NCBI GenBank assembly: GCA_030272585.1
Contig: BSYQ01000008.1
Location: forward strand, 5,766,001 to 5,830,000
From: Bryopsis sp. KO-2023
Lineage: Eukaryota; Chlorophyta; Ulvophyceae; Bryopsidales; Bryopsidaceae
Reading direction: 5' to 3'
Length of the DNA stretch: 64,000 bases
Numbering within the stretch: position 1 is the first letter of the stretch; every line of letters begins with the position of its first letter. The translations under genes were made by a program, and so were the position numbers. A model generated the notes under the pieces. It was given only the letters and a program-made list of their open reading frames with translations, ran no database searches and was not told the DNA's origin. This document shows positions 755 to 8,684 of this stretch, piece after piece.

Positions 755-1129
755 TTATCGACCCCACGGTCGACAAGTAAGATCCCATTTCTTCTTCACT
801 CCAAGTAAAAAATGCCCGAGGGGCTCCAGCTGCTCAATAAAATGGTCCCAAGCAAGATTGGACGAAGCATAAGCTTCAAATAAAGGTTGTCTCAGATGCT
901 CATATAGACCACAAGAAAAAATAATGTGGTCCCTGTCCTCCGTATGAAAACCACAAGCACACTGGGTGCGTGTAGTACCTAAAACCTTGAACCTACTCAA
1001 ATACTGATAACACGGAAAATGCCCGGAAAGAACTTGGGCCACCAAACTGCTGTGGGGCTTGGCTAACTGCACTGTCCAACACTTATTGTGCTCAAAGAAA
1101 ATCCCCAAAGACCGTGGACCACTCCCTTT
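755..1129 (-). pseudogene. 3' end of LINE ORF2, cut off by an insertion
   Basis: These 125 bp-codon-range bases encode the last 124 residues of ORF2, in frame with the part at 5763-8645. Visible is a Cys/His-rich C-terminal knuckle (CACGFHTEDRDHIIFSC), typical of Jockey/I/R1-type proteins after the reverse transcriptase. The stop codon is at 755-757. The first codon shared with the other half is AAA (Lys) at 1127-1129, which is also the 3-bp target duplication. If the insertion and one AAA copy are ignored, the frame runs straight through to give about 1,084 residues. The open frame also continues upstream into the inserted element's repeats, but that part is not retrotransposon sequence. Confidence 0.85.
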
Positions 1130-1169
1130 CACAAGGCGGAAGGGGGGTACCGCCGACGCCGTCGCCGAC
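1130..1169 (+). repeat. left terminal inverted repeat
   Basis: This 40-bp left end is the exact reverse complement of 5723-5762. The outer part is CACAAGGCGGAAGGGGGGTA and the inner part runs into GCCGAC/GTCGCC repeats. It begins directly after the TTT duplication. Confidence 0.9.
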
Positions 1170-1261
1170 ACCGTCGTTCGTGACAAGCGCGTCGGCGACG
1201 TCACCAGGAGCGTCGGCGACGGAAATATGATGTGATTGTCACATCGGTTGGTGCAGTCACA

Positions 1262-1480
1262 GCGTCGCCGTCAAGTGTCATTCGTCGGCGACGCTGCGTC
1301 GGTGACGGAGGCGTCGCCGACGGCATCGTTTAGGGCGTCGCCGTCGAGTGTCATTCGTCGGCGACGCTGCGTCGGTGACGGGCGCGTCGCCGACGGCGTC
1401 GTTTATGGCGTCGCCGTCAGGTGTCATTCGTCGGCGACGCTGCGTCGGTGACGGGCGCGTCGCCGACGGCATCGTTATGG
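1262..1480. repeat. 73-bp tandem repeat, three units, left subterminal region
   Basis: Three near-identical units start at 1262, 1335 and 1408, each opening GCGTCGCCGTC and containing GTCGGCGACGCTGCGTCGG and GCGTCGCCGACGGC. Spacing is exactly 73 bp. In CACTA elements such subterminal arrays bind the transposase; that role here is inference. Confidence 0.85.
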
Positions 1481-1751
1481 CGTCGTTGAATGGTGAACCC
1501 ATCCCAACCAGATTTGATTGTACAAATCATGTTAATTTTTAACGTCAAGTGTGACCCCGACACCAAACCCAACAGCGCAATCGCATCAACCCCTTTCGCC
1601 GCTCTGGGAAATTCGACGCGGTGCGCGCGTGTGCGTCTTTCTGCGCTGTTGGAACAAGGAAAGGAGGGAAAGTGGAAAGTGAAGGGAAGTGGTAACGGCG
1701 GCGGTGCGGTGGCGGTGGTGTTTGCCAGCATTTTGGCCGAAGCTTGTGAAC

Positions 1752-1805
1752 CCCTGTAAGGCTTCATTCCTGTTGTCTCCCTGTAAGGCTTCATTCCTGT
1801 TGTCT
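1752..1805. repeat. 27-bp perfect direct duplication
   Basis: The 27-bp unit starting CCCTGTAAGGCTTCATTCCT occurs twice head to tail (1752-1778, 1779-1805) inside the CACTA-like element. No coding role is seen. Confidence 0.85.
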
Positions 1806-1914
1806 CTTGAAGACATTTTCCTTCGTGTTTCAAAGTTCGTGGATAGTTCGGGGCCTTCCCTTTCCTTTCCTTTGCTTCGTTTTTTTCTGACAGAAGACCT
1901 GTGTGTCTTGACAG

Positions 1915-2816
1915 GAGGCTGAGCTGCACAAATTTGTGGAGAGGCTGAATAAAGAGGGCCGGCTCAATTTCGACTCAGGGAAAGAGAAAGGAGGAGAGTT
2001 TGGTGAGGGTTATGTGACTTGCAAACTGTAAGTGATGCTTTTTAAGCTCGTATGCTGTTTTACCTTTGTTTTTCTTTAAAAATGCGAAGAAGTGGTACGT
2101 GTGAAGTCGGCTGGAACTCGTCAGTGACGGGTCGGCACCGCCATTCCAAAAGCGAACATCGCGTTCGAATAAATTTGACACATGTAGTTGTAAATAGAGA
2201 TCCCAGCACACAATTGTGGTTTGCAAACATAATCACAAGATCCGATTGGAAACTAGGGTTAGGTTGACTTGGAACATCCTGAGCTGTGATTTCGAATGGC
2301 AGCAGGGTTTGAAGCAAGTATTTTAATGCTGTTGGGTTTAGGCCTCGAGTTTCTGGTGGATTTGTGGGGGGATCTCTGGAATTGATCAGGTTGAACCCCC
2401 AACACACTTTCCATCTGCAAGCAATCATCAGTGTGCGAATGCACACTGTCCAACATAGCTTTGTTTTTTCCTGGCGGATAGTTAGCAACAGACCCCCATT
2501 TGTGGGAGGGAGGAAGCGACGACCAGCCCACAACAACGTTAACTGTGTTGTTCGTGTTACTGAAATTTTGCTGGTGTCCAGATGCATATTCATATGGGGC
2601 CTTCTGTTTGTTGCTATCAGTTTTATTTTTGTATATTCTTCTGTGTCTAGGAGAGTGAAGGTTCTGATTTTTTTTAATCTTTTATTTGTGTATGTGTGTG
2701 TTTTCTGTCGAAAAGGGGTAAAGTTGTTGATTTGGTTTTGCATTTTGCAGGTGCTTAATGACCATGGTCTTTTGGACGCCAAGGAGGAAGCAAAAGAGAA
2801 AGTCAAGACTGTCTGA
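1915..2816 (+). other. exon-like pieces inside the CACTA-like element, unassigned
   Basis: At 1915-2027 an open segment lies between ACAG and GTAAGT splice signals; its frame reads AELHKFVERLNKEGRL and on. At 2751-2816, after a TTTTGCAG acceptor, a frame reads VLNDHGLLDAKEEAKEKVKT and stops. Both look like coding exons by composition, but the splice phase between them does not preserve the frame. I do not recognise the family, and nothing ties them to the iminopeptidase exons downstream. They may be pieces of another captured gene. Confidence 0.35.
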
Positions 2817-3112
2817 AGTCCCCCCAAAAAATCCTTCAAGAAATATCGCAAATCACAGAAGTAATTCTGCGTGTATCTCCAAGAAAGACGTAGTTGAATG
2901 CGGTCTGTCAGAGTATGAAGGTGAGAACTTGAAAAAAACATGACTGGCCTATGCAATCGCACATCCAAACAGGTGAAAGAAGGCAGGACTGTTGGTATGG
3001 AATTATTCACAGTTTTGCAAAGGTTCTTGACCCAACAGAAAACATCGAATTAAAGAAAAAGCAAATGCAAGGGTGGTGATTGATGTTGGTAAAATGTTCT
3101 GTTGGTTTTTAG

Positions 3113-4190
3113 GGTTTCAGGGATGGTTTTGAGGGGAATATGCACGATGCGAACGGAGGAAATCGATTGGATGTACAGAGGGGGTGCTGGAAGCCTTTTT
3201 CCGGAGGTGACAAACATTTTTAAATCTGCCCTAAGTAATGTGTCCAGGTGGCTTCTGTTCTTTTGTTCACAGACAAGAGGCAGGTGTTTTTGAAAGAATC
3301 AAAACTTGACATGGACCGACCAGGATTTAAAACCTCAGCCACACCCGAATACGTCAAATTTCCTGTCAGACCTGCTCTATATCACCTTGCTCATGACTGT
3401 TTTCGTTCACTTTTTTTTGCATCTGCATGATGTCCAAATAATTGCTTTTGACACGGACAGGGCTGGGCTTAATTTTTATCCATTCTTTCCGACTCAGAGA
3501 AAGAGGATCCACTTGCTTCCTATTACAAGCGGCTGACATCGCCTGACTTAGACACTGTGGAGAGAGCGGTAAGTAAAAACCACAAAAACGTCTTTCTTGG
3601 CGTAGTTTTTTTTTATTTTTCAAGAGAGACAGTCATTAGACCAAAGCTCTGTGTAATCACATGCAGGCAAATCGATGGAGGCGATGGGAAATGACCGTCA
3701 TGTTTTCTGGGAAATGCATAGTGAAGGCCGGAGAAATTTTCAATGCGGCTTGGGAACCCATCGCATCCATTATGAAAAAAAGGGGCGGTGAAAAGAAGCC
3801 CGATAAAAAAGACGACGATGCCGATGGTGGGAAACCTAAACCCACGAGGTCGATTTCTCATGCGCAGCCTTTGCTGGAATGCCACTATTCCATTAATGGT
3901 GCATTTTTGGATGAGCCTCTGATTGCTGGGGTGGATAGGTACGACAGTGCATGGTATCTGAATGTTTTCAGAGAAAGCTTTAAAACTTCCCTCCCAGAAG
4001 CCCTACGAAACGTACTGCCATGACTGAAAGCTTGATGTGGTCTGTTCACTGCATGCAGCAGTGCGCACAAGTGAGGATGCCTCTTAATTTCTGTGCTTTT
4101 TTTCTCCCCATTTGATGGTGTGTTTCTGTGGATTTAGGATTCGTGACATTCCATGCATCGGGGTGCAAGGGCGGCTGGATTTTGTCCGTT
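3113..4190 (+). pseudogene. proline iminopeptidase (peptidase S33) exons, partial
   Basis: Four exons read as prolyl aminopeptidase, an alpha/beta-hydrolase that removes N-terminal proline. Exon 3113-3206 has GMVLRGIC and EIDWMYRGGAGSLFPE. Exon 3498-3568 has EKEDPLASYYKRLTSPDLDT. Exon 3667-3938 has ANRWRRWEM and ECHYSINGAFLDEPLIAGVD, with a family-atypical lysine/aspartate-rich insert between. The piece from 4138 has IRDIPCIGVQGRLDF, which includes the family's catalytic Asp loop. Phases join correctly from 3498 to the last exon, but a short exon is missing between the first two, and the N-terminal half with the nucleophile Ser (GGSWG) and oxyanion loop is not found. The frame decays after GRLDFV, where CP is expected. 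This is a truncated, captured fragment. Confidence 0.75.
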
Positions 4191-4265
4191 TGAGTTCTCC
4201 ACAACATTATCGCACGTACTCGTTTTTTTGCTGGATAACCACGGCGTGGTTACCACGCTTATCGA

Positions 4266-4421
4266 GTGGGTGATTACATTTTGGGCCAGGCGATGGAGGC
4301 TGGGGAAACAGTCACTTTTAACGGGATGACCTTGGATAGGAACGAAATCGACCTGGAGTACCTCCACCAAAACATGCAAAGGTCCTCAGGACAGGGAGGA
4401 GCTCTGGGTCTTGACAAATAA
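4266..4421 (+). other. short C-terminal-like ORF within the element, unassigned
   Basis: An open frame ends in TAA at 4419-4421 and reads VGDYILGQAMEAGETVTFNG, then MTLDRNEIDLEYLHQNMQRS. The composition is protein-like, with no low complexity, but it does not match the iminopeptidase C-terminus, which should contain a GHS motif. It could be the last exon of another captured gene. The splice acceptor is unclear. Confidence 0.35.
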
Positions 4422-5422
4422 CCAAAATACCACTGATGTTGTATATGTACATCTGAATATACAAAAACATATGTATATATGGGGGGCGTGGAAAACCCTT
4501 ATCGTGGTGTTATGATTGAAAAGATGCTGCCCAACGAAGCCATCTTGGCTTGAGGGTGAAATGCATGAATTGAATATACGGGGAAAAAACTTCATAAGAA
4601 TTTTACATTTCTCGGAAAACTATAGCACTTATTTCTCGTTTTGCGATTCTTGATCTTATAGGGAATACATTTTTTTTCTTCTTTTTCTGACATTTTTGAT
4701 GTCGAGTAGTATTATAGGGGTTTCTGGAGCATAATCAAGCTGCCCGTGACAGGGTGTTTCTTTTTTTAGTTGGCGGGCTTTTTTTTCACCCCCGTTCCCT
4801 TCCAAAACCCAAAGAGTTTGGGTTGGGATAGTGTTTTGGGAAGTTTCTGAAATACCGAGGGGGTTTTGTAATAATTGTGCTTTTTTCTTTTTCTTTTTTG
4901 TGATGGATAGGAGGGGAGAATTGATTTCTTTCCTGTCTGTCTGTATTAATCAACCACACTGATTCGTTGTTTTTTCTTTGTTCAAGACACAGACACCAGC
5001 ATTTGGCATAGTCTTTTCGAGGGAGTTTTTCTTCTTTGTGTTACTAATGATACTGACACATGGGGTGGTTTTCTTTTTTTTTAACATTCTGAAGTTGTTG
5101 CAAGAACTTTGAAAAAAAAAAGAAGAGGTCGCATGGCCAGTCTATTTGTTGTTTACAGTTGGGGGCAAGATCGAGTGCCTTTGGGGAAAAAAAGGTACAT
5201 ATATTGAATCAACAAAAAAAGAAAAAAAGAAATTCAAGAAGTGACTCCGAGAGGGTCAACCATAGTTTTCTTAGAAGAAATCCATTTGGAGTATGATTGC
5301 AGGCGCATCTGCAATAGCAGATCCGGGATCGACACCTGGAATCATCAATCGAATCATCAATCAAATCCTCAATCTATTCCCCCAAATTCATCAATTCCAC
5401 ATCCAGAAAACAGGTTTCAGTG
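4422..5422. other. T-rich non-coding interior of the CACTA-like element
   Basis: About 1 kb of T-rich DNA with short homopolymers. No credible ORF, transposase motif or RNA gene was seen. Confidence 0.6.
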
Positions 5423-5722
5423 GCACCCACCGACACCGTCGGCGACACCGTCACCGACGTCATTGTCGCCGACACACCGTCGTTATGACGTCGGCGACGC
5501 GTCGGTCACACTTTTCAGGCAGCGTCGCCGACGTTTTCGTCTTGCGAACGACGTTTCGTCGGCGACGCTGTGTCGGCGACGGCGTCGGCGACGTCACTGA
5601 AACCGTCGGCGACGCTACTGAAACCGTCGGCGATGCCGTCGCCGACGCCGTCGGCGACACAGCGTCGCCGACGAAACGTCGTTCGCAAGACGAAAACGTC
5701 GGCGAAAGAGCGTCGGCGACGC
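5423..5722. repeat. right subterminal repeats with a long hairpin
   Basis: The segment is dense in GTCGGCGAC and its complement GTCGCCGAC. Within it, 5523-5592 and 5638-5707 are 70-bp inverted copies with about one mismatch, separated by 45 bp, so one strand can fold into a long hairpin. The long apparent reading frames here are products of the repeat. Confidence 0.85.
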
Positions 5723-5762
5723 GTCGGCGACGGCGTCGGCGGTACCCCCCTTCCGCCTTGTG
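5723..5762 (-). repeat. right terminal inverted repeat
   Basis: This is the exact reverse complement of 1130-1169. It is followed by TTT at 5763-5765 and then by LINE ORF2 sequence in its original frame. Confidence 0.9.
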
Positions 5763-8645
5763 TTTTGCACTCAAACTCAACCAGGTGTTTTGTCGTGTGT
5801 TCAACCAAACGTCTACCTGAGCCATCCTTTGCTTGAACCAAGAACGGCCAGGATTAGAAACTTGGACTTGTAAATCCGGAGCAAACTGTTCCTCCACAAG
5901 ATCAGAGTTTCGTTGGAAGTCCCGAAGCTCCACCTTGAGCTGGGCCTCCCACGGCGTGGTCGTAGCCCCAGTTCTCTCTAAGAGATGCTGAGGGAAGGAG
6001 AGCTTGCCCCGTGAAATGCTTCGGAATAAATCCATCAGCACCATCCTGACAATCTGTAAATCAATAGTAAAAAGACCCACCAATGCATGCACACTTTCAT
6101 AGCTGGTGGTCTTCAAACAACCCAAAATAAGAACCCCTGCCTTTCGAATAACTTGACCGAGTTTTTTCTTGTCGTTCTCCTTGAGAAAACATCCCCATAA
6201 CTCTAGACCGTAGCACATCATGGGGACAATACTGCATCGCACCAAAAGGTTGGTAACTGAGATACGAGGACCCCAAAACAACTTGCAAACCCGGCGAACG
6301 CTATGCAATCTATTGACCATCTTTTCAATCAACTTGTCGACGTGGGTCTTGAAAGTCAAATCCGAATCGATCCATAACCCCAAATACTTGAAAACAGAAA
6401 CCTGTGGGATGGAGGAACCCTGCACTTGAAAGCGAAGAAGCCTACCCTGAAAAGAGTGGGGGCATTCCAACACTGCACATTTTGGCCAACTAAGTTGCAA
6501 GCGGGCCTGGTGGCACCAGTTTGCTACCATGCCCAAGTCAGATTCCAAAACCTCCTTGATACGAGACTGAGCAACCCGCGTAACTAAAGCTAAATCATCC
6601 GCAAAGCCCTGAAAGTGGGACTGAAGGGGGAGGTAAAACACCTCATCCAACATCACCAAAAACAGAGTAGGGCTGAGGGGACTGCCTTGAGGACAGCCCG
6701 TCATGATCGAATGAACAAAGGATTTATTCTGGATCCGTAAAACTGCCCTCCGGTGAACTAAGAAAGAATCCACAAGTGTCACTAAATAATCCGGGAACTC
6801 TAAATCCAACATTCGAGAAAGAATTTTAGTATTCCAAGTAGTGTCAAATGCTGATTTAATGTCCAGAAAAGAGGCCCACACCGGGTGCCCATCTCGTTTC
6901 GCTTGATGCAATTTACCCAACATAACCCGCAAGGCATCAGTGCAACTCCTATGTCGCCTGAAACCGTACTGATGCTCTGAAAGTTTCCCAGTAGATTCTA
7001 AAAACTCTTGGAGTCTGCTTTGTAAAATCGATTCGAAAATTTTCCCCAACACCGAAAGTAAGGAGATCGGTCTAAGACAAGAAACCGCCTGATTATGGGT
7101 TGGAGATTTAGGAACAGGAACCACGGTGGCCTGCTTCCACACTACAGGAAATGTCTCCAACCGGATGCAACTGTTGAAAATGTCCACTAGAATTGGAAGT
7201 AAAAGAACCCAACATTTCTTCAACAAAGAAGGGCTAACGCCGTCGGGGCCAGGGGCCGAAAAGGGACGGACTTTCTTGATTCGAGACAAAACTTCGACAC
7301 CAGTTATCAGAGGGCCAGGTTGAGGCACTCGGGAAGAGCGCCAGTGATTCACCTGGGTCTCAAATGGTTGGTGTTCCACACCCATATCCACAGGGGATGT
7401 AGGGAAAAACTTCCGACCTAACTGTTCACTAATTTGCTCTGCGTCGCTAATAACCTCATCATCGACCCGCACAAACGAAGTGTGCACCCGACAGTGTTTG
7501 TTTTGAATGTTTTTCATGTACCTCCAACATGTCTCGGAGGTGAGCTCCGCAGATGTCTCCCTCCAATGGACTTGCTTTGCCTCTTCAAGAGTGGCCTTGA
7601 AGGTTGTCCTTGCGGTTCGGGCAGCAGCTTGGAGGTCCACATTGACAGGGAAACCATGACGCCGCCTGTACCGTGTGACCCGACGCTGGGCACGCACGTG
7701 GGCCTGATGTGCCTCCTTTACTTCGGGTGTCCACCATGGACGGTTGGAGCCCCTAACTCGAAAAACTGGGACATGGCGCTTTGCTTCCTCCAACAAGCAA
7801 GCCTGGAAGTCGTCAATCCTACAGGACAGTTCACCAGCAGAGTGCACAAGATCCCACCCAAAAACGTCCCAATGGTTGTCTGAAATCGTCCTTTCGATCC
7901 CAGGGATCAAATTGTCCCAATCAGTGTTCCTCCAGTTCAGTCTAGTCTCATGGTCCTCTAACACACCCCCACACCGAACTGCAAACCGAATAAGGTTGTG
8001 GTCGGTAAGCCTATCCGCAATATCAAACACTTGCCAACTCGTCACGAGATGTGCTGAGTTAGTCACCGTAATATCAAGATCAAATTCTTCTCCATTGTGG
8101 TGCACATATGTAGCTAAACTATCCTTGTCATTCAAAACCTGTAAATCGTGATCCACCAAGAAATCCATAACCTTTTGCCCTTGAGCATTGGGTCGAGAGA
8201 CCCTCCGACTCCACCAGGGACTGCACCCATTGCAATCCAATCCCACAAAAAGAACCCGGGTAGAAAACTGGTCACAAGCTGCGTGAATTGCACTAAGCCC
8301 TTCAGCATTTCGAGTCCGAGGAGCCACGTAACCAGAAAGAAAAACCAACTCCCTCCCTCTCTCTAATACGGAAACTGCAGCCCACCGACCACAAGGAGAG
8401 TGAATCAAAGAGTAAAGAATAGTGGACCTGACCAACACTAGGGCAAGAACTTGCCTGGCCTCAACCTGAGGTAAACAAACGTCAAAACCTAAAAACTTCC
8501 TCGCGTTCACAAGTCCCCAAGGAGGATCTTGTAAAAGCCAAATATCGACCCCCCTGTTCACAGGGCGACCAATGTGTGTATCAATTGCAGCTTGGGATTT
8601 CCTACAGTTCAACTGAGCAATATTCCAAAAGGACCTAGATCCCAT
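5763..8645 (-). CDS. LINE ORF2: AP-endonuclease/reverse transcriptase (5' part)
   Basis: 961 codons from ATG at 8645 to the insertion boundary. The N-terminal exonuclease-endonuclease-phosphatase domain shows LNCRKS, LLQDPPWG, FVGLDCNGCSPWWSR, LDITVTN and the DHN replacement of the usual SDH. The reverse transcriptase follows with APGPDG, RPISLLSVLGK, QYGFRRHRSC, FLDIKSAFD (first catalytic Asp), GCPQGSPLSPTLF, the FADD catalytic box and FKYLGLWID. This order and these motifs fit Jockey/I/CR1-like LINEs. The protein would nick target DNA and prime reverse transcription there. The frame continues without a stop into the inserted element's repeats down to 5460, but that tail is not original; the true C-terminus is at 755-1129. 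No internal stop is seen in the ORF2 part, so the copy may be young. Confidence 0.9.
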
Positions 8646-8648
8646 CGT

Positions 8649-8679
8649 CCCCCCCCCCCTTTTTTTTTTTTTTTTTTTG
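8649..8679 (-). promoter_or_regulatory. A20-G11 homopolymer between LINE ORF1 and ORF2
   Basis: On the element's coding strand, about twenty A then eleven G residues sit in the 39-bp gap between the ORF1 stop (8685-8687) and the ORF2 ATG (8643-8645). The tract could favour ribosome or polymerase slippage, or reinitiation on ORF2. It could also be a chance homopolymer, since such runs are common in this genome. Confidence 0.35.
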
Positions 8680-8684
8680 TTTAG

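Follow-up and report, generated by a model that had tools for sequence, protein, structure and literature searches.

At positions 1130–5762 of the window, by which we mean the whole 64-kb stretch of DNA analysed here (G000:C8:5766001-5830000, in a genome of 91 Mb on 28 contigs), lies a DNA transposon of 4,633 bp. Its 40-bp ends are perfect inverted repeats, it is flanked by a TTT duplication, and its subterminal regions are densely repetitive, as an earlier note on this stretch had described. The arms (1130–1169 and 5723–5762) are complementary at 40 of 40 positions, the terminal bases of this copy are CACAA ... TTGTG, and TTT stands on both sides; the end sequence for comparison with relatives is CACAAGGCGG. 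All 22 exact GTCGSCGAC sites of the 64-kb window fall inside 1161–1467 and 5438–5731, against a mean expectation of 0.13 in 100 shuffles. The element interrupts the minus-strand reverse-transcriptase frame of a non-LTR retrotransposon, and its own structural features are as follows.

755–8684, minus strand: non-LTR retrotransposon with a frame for endonuclease and reverse transcriptase, into which the element inserted
1127–1129, no strand: left TTT target-site duplication, a single TTT at empty sites
1130–1169, plus strand: left terminal inverted repeat, 40 bp, perfect
1130–1608, plus strand: left subterminal region, the element's own, containing GTCGSCGAC repeats as well as three direct repeats of 73 bp
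5294–5762, minus strand: right subterminal region of the element
5525–5705, no strand: palindrome with 72-nt arms, 97% complementary, within the right subterminal region
5723–5762, minus strand: right terminal inverted repeat, 40 bp
5763–5765, no strand: right TTT target-site duplication

A 300-base query in which both flanks were joined with one TTT was searched against the genome; 17 places were listed, of which 10 align with it from end to end at 98–100%. These ten uninterrupted retrotransposon copies, which show the empty site, indicate that the borders of the element and its TTT duplication are exact and that the insertion is recent. The retrotransposon at 755–8684 itself belongs to a recently active family, as these same ten places match its flank region.

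The interior and its donor loci

The element's own left end extends to about 1982. Beyond it, the interior of the window copy is a patchwork of pieces from at least five loci, spread over three contigs. Among them are an iminopeptidase gene, taken up with its introns, a gene with an MLLE domain, a WD40 gene and two further loci. Most of the other interior pieces likewise have donors elsewhere in the genome; 1983–2246, 2509–2620 and 5200–5293 are without an assigned donor. In the following list, C with a number denotes a contig and C2auto is another copy of the element.

1604–1982, plus strand: stretch common to C2auto, 91–93%
2247–2508, no strand: piece common to C3:7585445-7585711, 82%
2621–2821, plus strand: captured 3′ part of an MLLE-domain gene, C3:1902047-1902295, 75–84%
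2828–2938, plus strand: captured piece of C11:1015570-1015680, 80%, adjoining WD40 (EML-like) coding frames
2945–4186, plus strand: captured piece of a proline iminopeptidase gene, introns included; the donor is C1:820117-821334, 88%
2945–2973, plus strand: iminopeptidase exon, 3′ end only
3114–3206, plus strand: iminopeptidase exon
3461–3568, plus strand: iminopeptidase exon with an in-frame stop, TAA, at 3470–3472 (serine codon in the donor)
3667–3938, plus strand: iminopeptidase exon
4138–4186, plus strand: first part of the final iminopeptidase exon, truncated ahead of the stretch that has the histidine motif
4186–5199, plus strand: captured piece of C3:2371548-2372618, 83%, with a conserved reading-frame end

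The iminopeptidase piece can be followed to an apparently intact gene on another contig, C1, predicted to encode a prolyl aminopeptidase: its exons, joined without the first, score 307 bits against TIGR01249 (cut-off 260), and nucleophile, acid and histidine motifs are present in what we take to be the form typical of the family. A joint translation of the window exons that lie 3′ of the stop codon matches TIGR01249 (8e-13) and also prolyl aminopeptidases of solved structure (4e-7), bearing out the iminopeptidase exons that had been read from the letters. Donor and captured copy are collinear and have their introns in common, with 526 of 551 exon columns (95.5%) and 581 of 641 intron columns (90.6%) identical when gap columns (171 and 64) are left out. 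Splice sites are preserved in the window copy and in L026, the two copies that were compared with the donor at the level of single bases. An RNA intermediate is excluded because the captured copy keeps the donor's introns and splice sites, and we rejected capture at the RNA level on the same alignment, which runs through the donor introns. The captured piece may also have come from a sister of the C1 gene that has since been lost. L026, a copy of type B (below), has a stop at the same codon as the window copy, a 1-bp deletion and asparagine in place of the histidine. The window iminopeptidase is, by its predicted translation, a pseudogene that cannot make the enzyme.

The PABP-type MLLE domain lies in an upstream exon of the C3:1902k gene (MLLE, E 2e-27; PABP match, 1e-19) and is absent from the window piece; type C copies extend into the domain, whereas the window copy stops short of it. 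Beside C11:1015.6k is a frame with a WD40 match above cut-off and an EML match just below cut-off, and we infer that the captured C11 piece and this adjoining frame belong to the same gene. Within the stretch common to C2auto, 1850–1982 also matches C1:4650958 at 89%, next to a sulfite reductase gene; this match and that to C3:7585k denote shared sequence only, in either direction of transfer. The consecutive pieces from C3, C11, C1 and C3 follow one another with 6, 6 and 0 unassigned bases between them. At the join of the iminopeptidase and C3:2372k pieces one base is common to both, and at the join of C4 and iminopeptidase pieces in type D there is one extra base; other joins are less clean. 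Types B and D carry an extra piece of C13:1137k and D also one of C4:6919k, and types C and D contain only parts of the iminopeptidase gene.

Copies, ends and the transposase question

Searching the genome for a 29-bp end pattern gave 49 sites at three mismatches or fewer (43 exact), and none for its reversed control. We examined 24 copies whole or in part, window included, some of them with one end only within the fetched stretch, and found four main interior types behind the same ends, which is the different cargo that the earlier note had proposed to look for. Type A, that of the window, has nine copies, type B five and type C seven; the others are L038 (type D), C2auto (L039 and L049) and L040. 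The iminopeptidase piece is present in 22 of the 24. Among the 20 copies with both flanks read, the target duplication is 3 bp in 13, 2 bp in six and absent in one.

Substitutions between copies amount to 0.02–0.32% in type A (8 of 9 copies, 28 pairs), 0.06–0.10% in type B (3 of 5 copies) and 0.10–0.79% in type C (6 of 7 copies). The captured introns are about 9% (9.4%) away from the donor introns, compared with 0.02–0.32% between copies, which places the capture far earlier than the latest burst. As far as can be read from their sequences, the copies show that the chimera multiplied recently through transposition.

L040 (C2:8468913) was classed as a copy from its left end and C13 piece only, with no right end in 9.5 kb; at 5701–6783 of its stretch (C2:8468413-8478400), after the C13 piece, stands an F-box/WD40 reading frame, either a captured gene or a neighbour. 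Copies with big inserts are L027 (C16), L032 (C8) and L025/L042 (C11), and frames in such inserts include an open frame of 1,750 residues (C8) and one of 633 residues (C16). The copies of 10.3 kb and 20.6 kb were considered as autonomous elements and rejected: they are a type C and a type B copy that carry large inserts, the long frames of which look retrotransposon-like by eye. A further long copy, of 15.3 kb, was read with one of its ends.

The earlier note had seen no transposase in the interior of the window copy, and Pfam likewise recognised none in the 7 of 82 interior frames scanned. Nor was an intact transposase of the element family seen among the copies read. C2auto has the same left end as the family and about 1 kb in common with types B and C, at 97–98%; the stretch shared by type B extends into the final codons of what we read as the 3′ end of a putative transposase gene. 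This candidate gene consists of two frames out of register, through a frameshift or an intron not recognised; C2auto also holds frames that resemble those of retrotransposons, and a stretch of 14.5 kb showed no right end. Pfam returned no transposase match for the candidate up to E 5, Transposase_21 included, and a search of the genome with PF02992 returned a C12 locus and a weak place on C1, not C2auto; the C12 locus aligns with the C2auto exons at chance level (best E 0.047). The second exon has no solved-structure match up to E 10, scanning of viral contigs with the L049:3-872 exon confirmed no relative, and a structure prediction of L049:3-872 made without an alignment (mean pLDDT 36) was discarded. 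The place of the gene, its multi-copy relatives and motifs that presumably resemble those of Tnp2 suggest that it encodes a transposase.

Besides the full one, matches to the C2auto candidate in the genome are 26–53% identical over parts (31 and 64 places). These relatives, one of which was aligned at 31%, have the appearance of multi-copy families that contain long frames; C9:2230797, C8:5927158 and C4:2988655 are among those with long open frames, and one scanned piece, L053, has no Pfam transposase match. They are possibly a CACTA-like clade not yet described.

CACTA (EnSpm) elements are characterized by the terminal motif CACTA ... TAGTG and a 3-bp target-site duplication (PMC4158355), and by direct and inverted repeats that occupy several hundred subterminal bases (PMC8978399). 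The 3-bp duplication prevails here and the window copy has the subterminal repeats, but all ends with both flanks read start CACAA, as did the pattern used in the end search. Membership of the CACTA superfamily is likely from these features and is not proven, because the ends read CACAA and the related putative transposase falls outside Pfam. The earlier label 'CACTA-like' is therefore retained as the limit of the assignment.

Origin of the patchwork and comparison with known systems

Inverted ends without a recognised transposase, internal host-gene pieces that keep their introns and have donors elsewhere, and copies multiplied by transposition are together very probably explained by a Pack-type DNA transposon that is non-autonomous and has CACTA-like ends, one in which pieces of host genes were captured and then amplified. 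The earlier note's proposal of Pack-type gene capture is in this respect well supported. In such a course of events, a transposase acting in trans would recognise the ends and subterminal repeats, and insertion makes the 3-bp, sometimes 2-bp, target duplications seen at the flanks. An ancestral element lost most of its own gene and, as the retained introns attest, took up host-gene DNA, introns included. The entry step that we lean towards is repair of a break or excision gap inside the element by copying unrelated chromosomal templates. The chimera then spread by recent transposition. The captured gene pieces are passengers; that the young copies were moved by a related transposase clan is a guess.

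The entry of host DNA could instead reflect fusion, in which two elements of the family flank a gene, lose their inner ends and move as one by the outer ends. This is the published model for Arabidopsis Pack-CACTA and for maize and rice Pack-TYPE elements, as set out in PMC8903248 and PMC13317346, and type D, with left and right type B parts flanking a 2-kb C4 piece, fits it, being compatible with break repair as well. The type B copies speak for a different route: in five of five, the iminopeptidase piece sits between two pieces of the C11 locus (74 and 50 bases, 77% and 82%; short and weak matches) that a mere 13 bases separate at the donor locus (copy L026), so that it replaces only 13 bases of a piece already captured, the left C11 piece overlapping the C2auto-shared stretch by 27 bases. 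This nesting favours break repair over fusion of neighbouring elements, as fusion would call for two complementary deletions that agree to within 13 bases and copying repair is simpler; possibly, the gene had moved into a C11-type locus before capture. In the window, moreover, the near-abutting C3, C11, C1 and C3 pieces leave no space for element ends. We consider fusion possible and the less probable route.

That the element retains the carried genes for its own use is highly improbable: the splice sites of the captured exons are intact in the two aligned copies, as function would predict, but both have stops, their last exon is cut or its histidine changed, and each type holds different fragments. 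Chance matches, an assembly error or a segmental duplication, with no mobile element at all, might be entertained for donor matches of just 75–84%; with copies on many contigs that have target duplications of their own, E-values down to 0 and, decisively, the ten empty sites, we give this practically no credence. Pack-type capture followed by amplification is the reading that we retain. A broader version, offered tentatively and in our judgement unlikely as a whole, would have the captures arise by patchwork repair inside elements with templates from other chromosomes, one of them nested in another, and the chimeras spread through a related clan that libraries do not name, their own transposase being dead, as a live source of exon combinations in a green alga.

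The host probably resembles a Bryopsis-type green alga. The genome has 107 light-harvesting matches, and a 100-residue light-harvesting piece (one gene examined) has three differences from 6igz chain 7 (E 7e-66), which we take to be a Bryopsis corticulans structure; a 9vfj chain ranked top for this piece only via summed repeats. The sulfite reductase beside C1:4650958 is nearest to the chloroplast ferredoxin type. Capture in a protist had been called notable; the capture holds, but with a host that is probably a green alga the surprise shrinks, and the distance from plants was overstated.

Most descriptions of gene capture by cut-and-paste transposons come from land plants. In the open-access literature, as far as its available text extends, we found no CACTA-like element of an alga reported to have captured fragments of several genes; algal elements that carry additional genes have been reported (PMC12477816 and PMC6431247). 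A Pack-type CACTA-like family is thus known in kind and apparently new in this lineage within the literature searched. Here a single genome contains the donors, the several interior types and the empty sites, together with a relative that has a putative transposase, and the nested piece is relevant to the question, still open, of how host DNA enters Pack-type elements.

Among known systems, Pack-CACTA and Pack-TYPE elements of Arabidopsis, rice and maize are likewise non-autonomous, with inverted ends and captured gene DNA (PMC8903248), whereas here several donors stand side by side, one capture is apparently nested and the putative transposase lies outside Pfam. Tgm-Express1 of soybean is a CACTA element of a land plant with Tgm ends and demonstrated splicing; the present element, in what is probably a green alga, has CACAA ends and several interior types and is known from its sequence. 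Gene-carrying EnSpm and other giant transposons of Ectocarpus and red algae are also algal and carry non-transposase genes (PMC12477816 and PMC6431247), and the Ectocarpus authors compare theirs to Pack-MULEs (PMC12477816); those elements are described there as giant, with additional genes, unlike the short fragments with identified donor loci found here. The transduplicating hAT of Pyrenophora is a non-plant DNA transposon that multiplied a gene, histone-H3-like in that case (PMC3538342), but it belongs to the hAT superfamily, has a long form with a transposase and carries one histone-like cargo gene.
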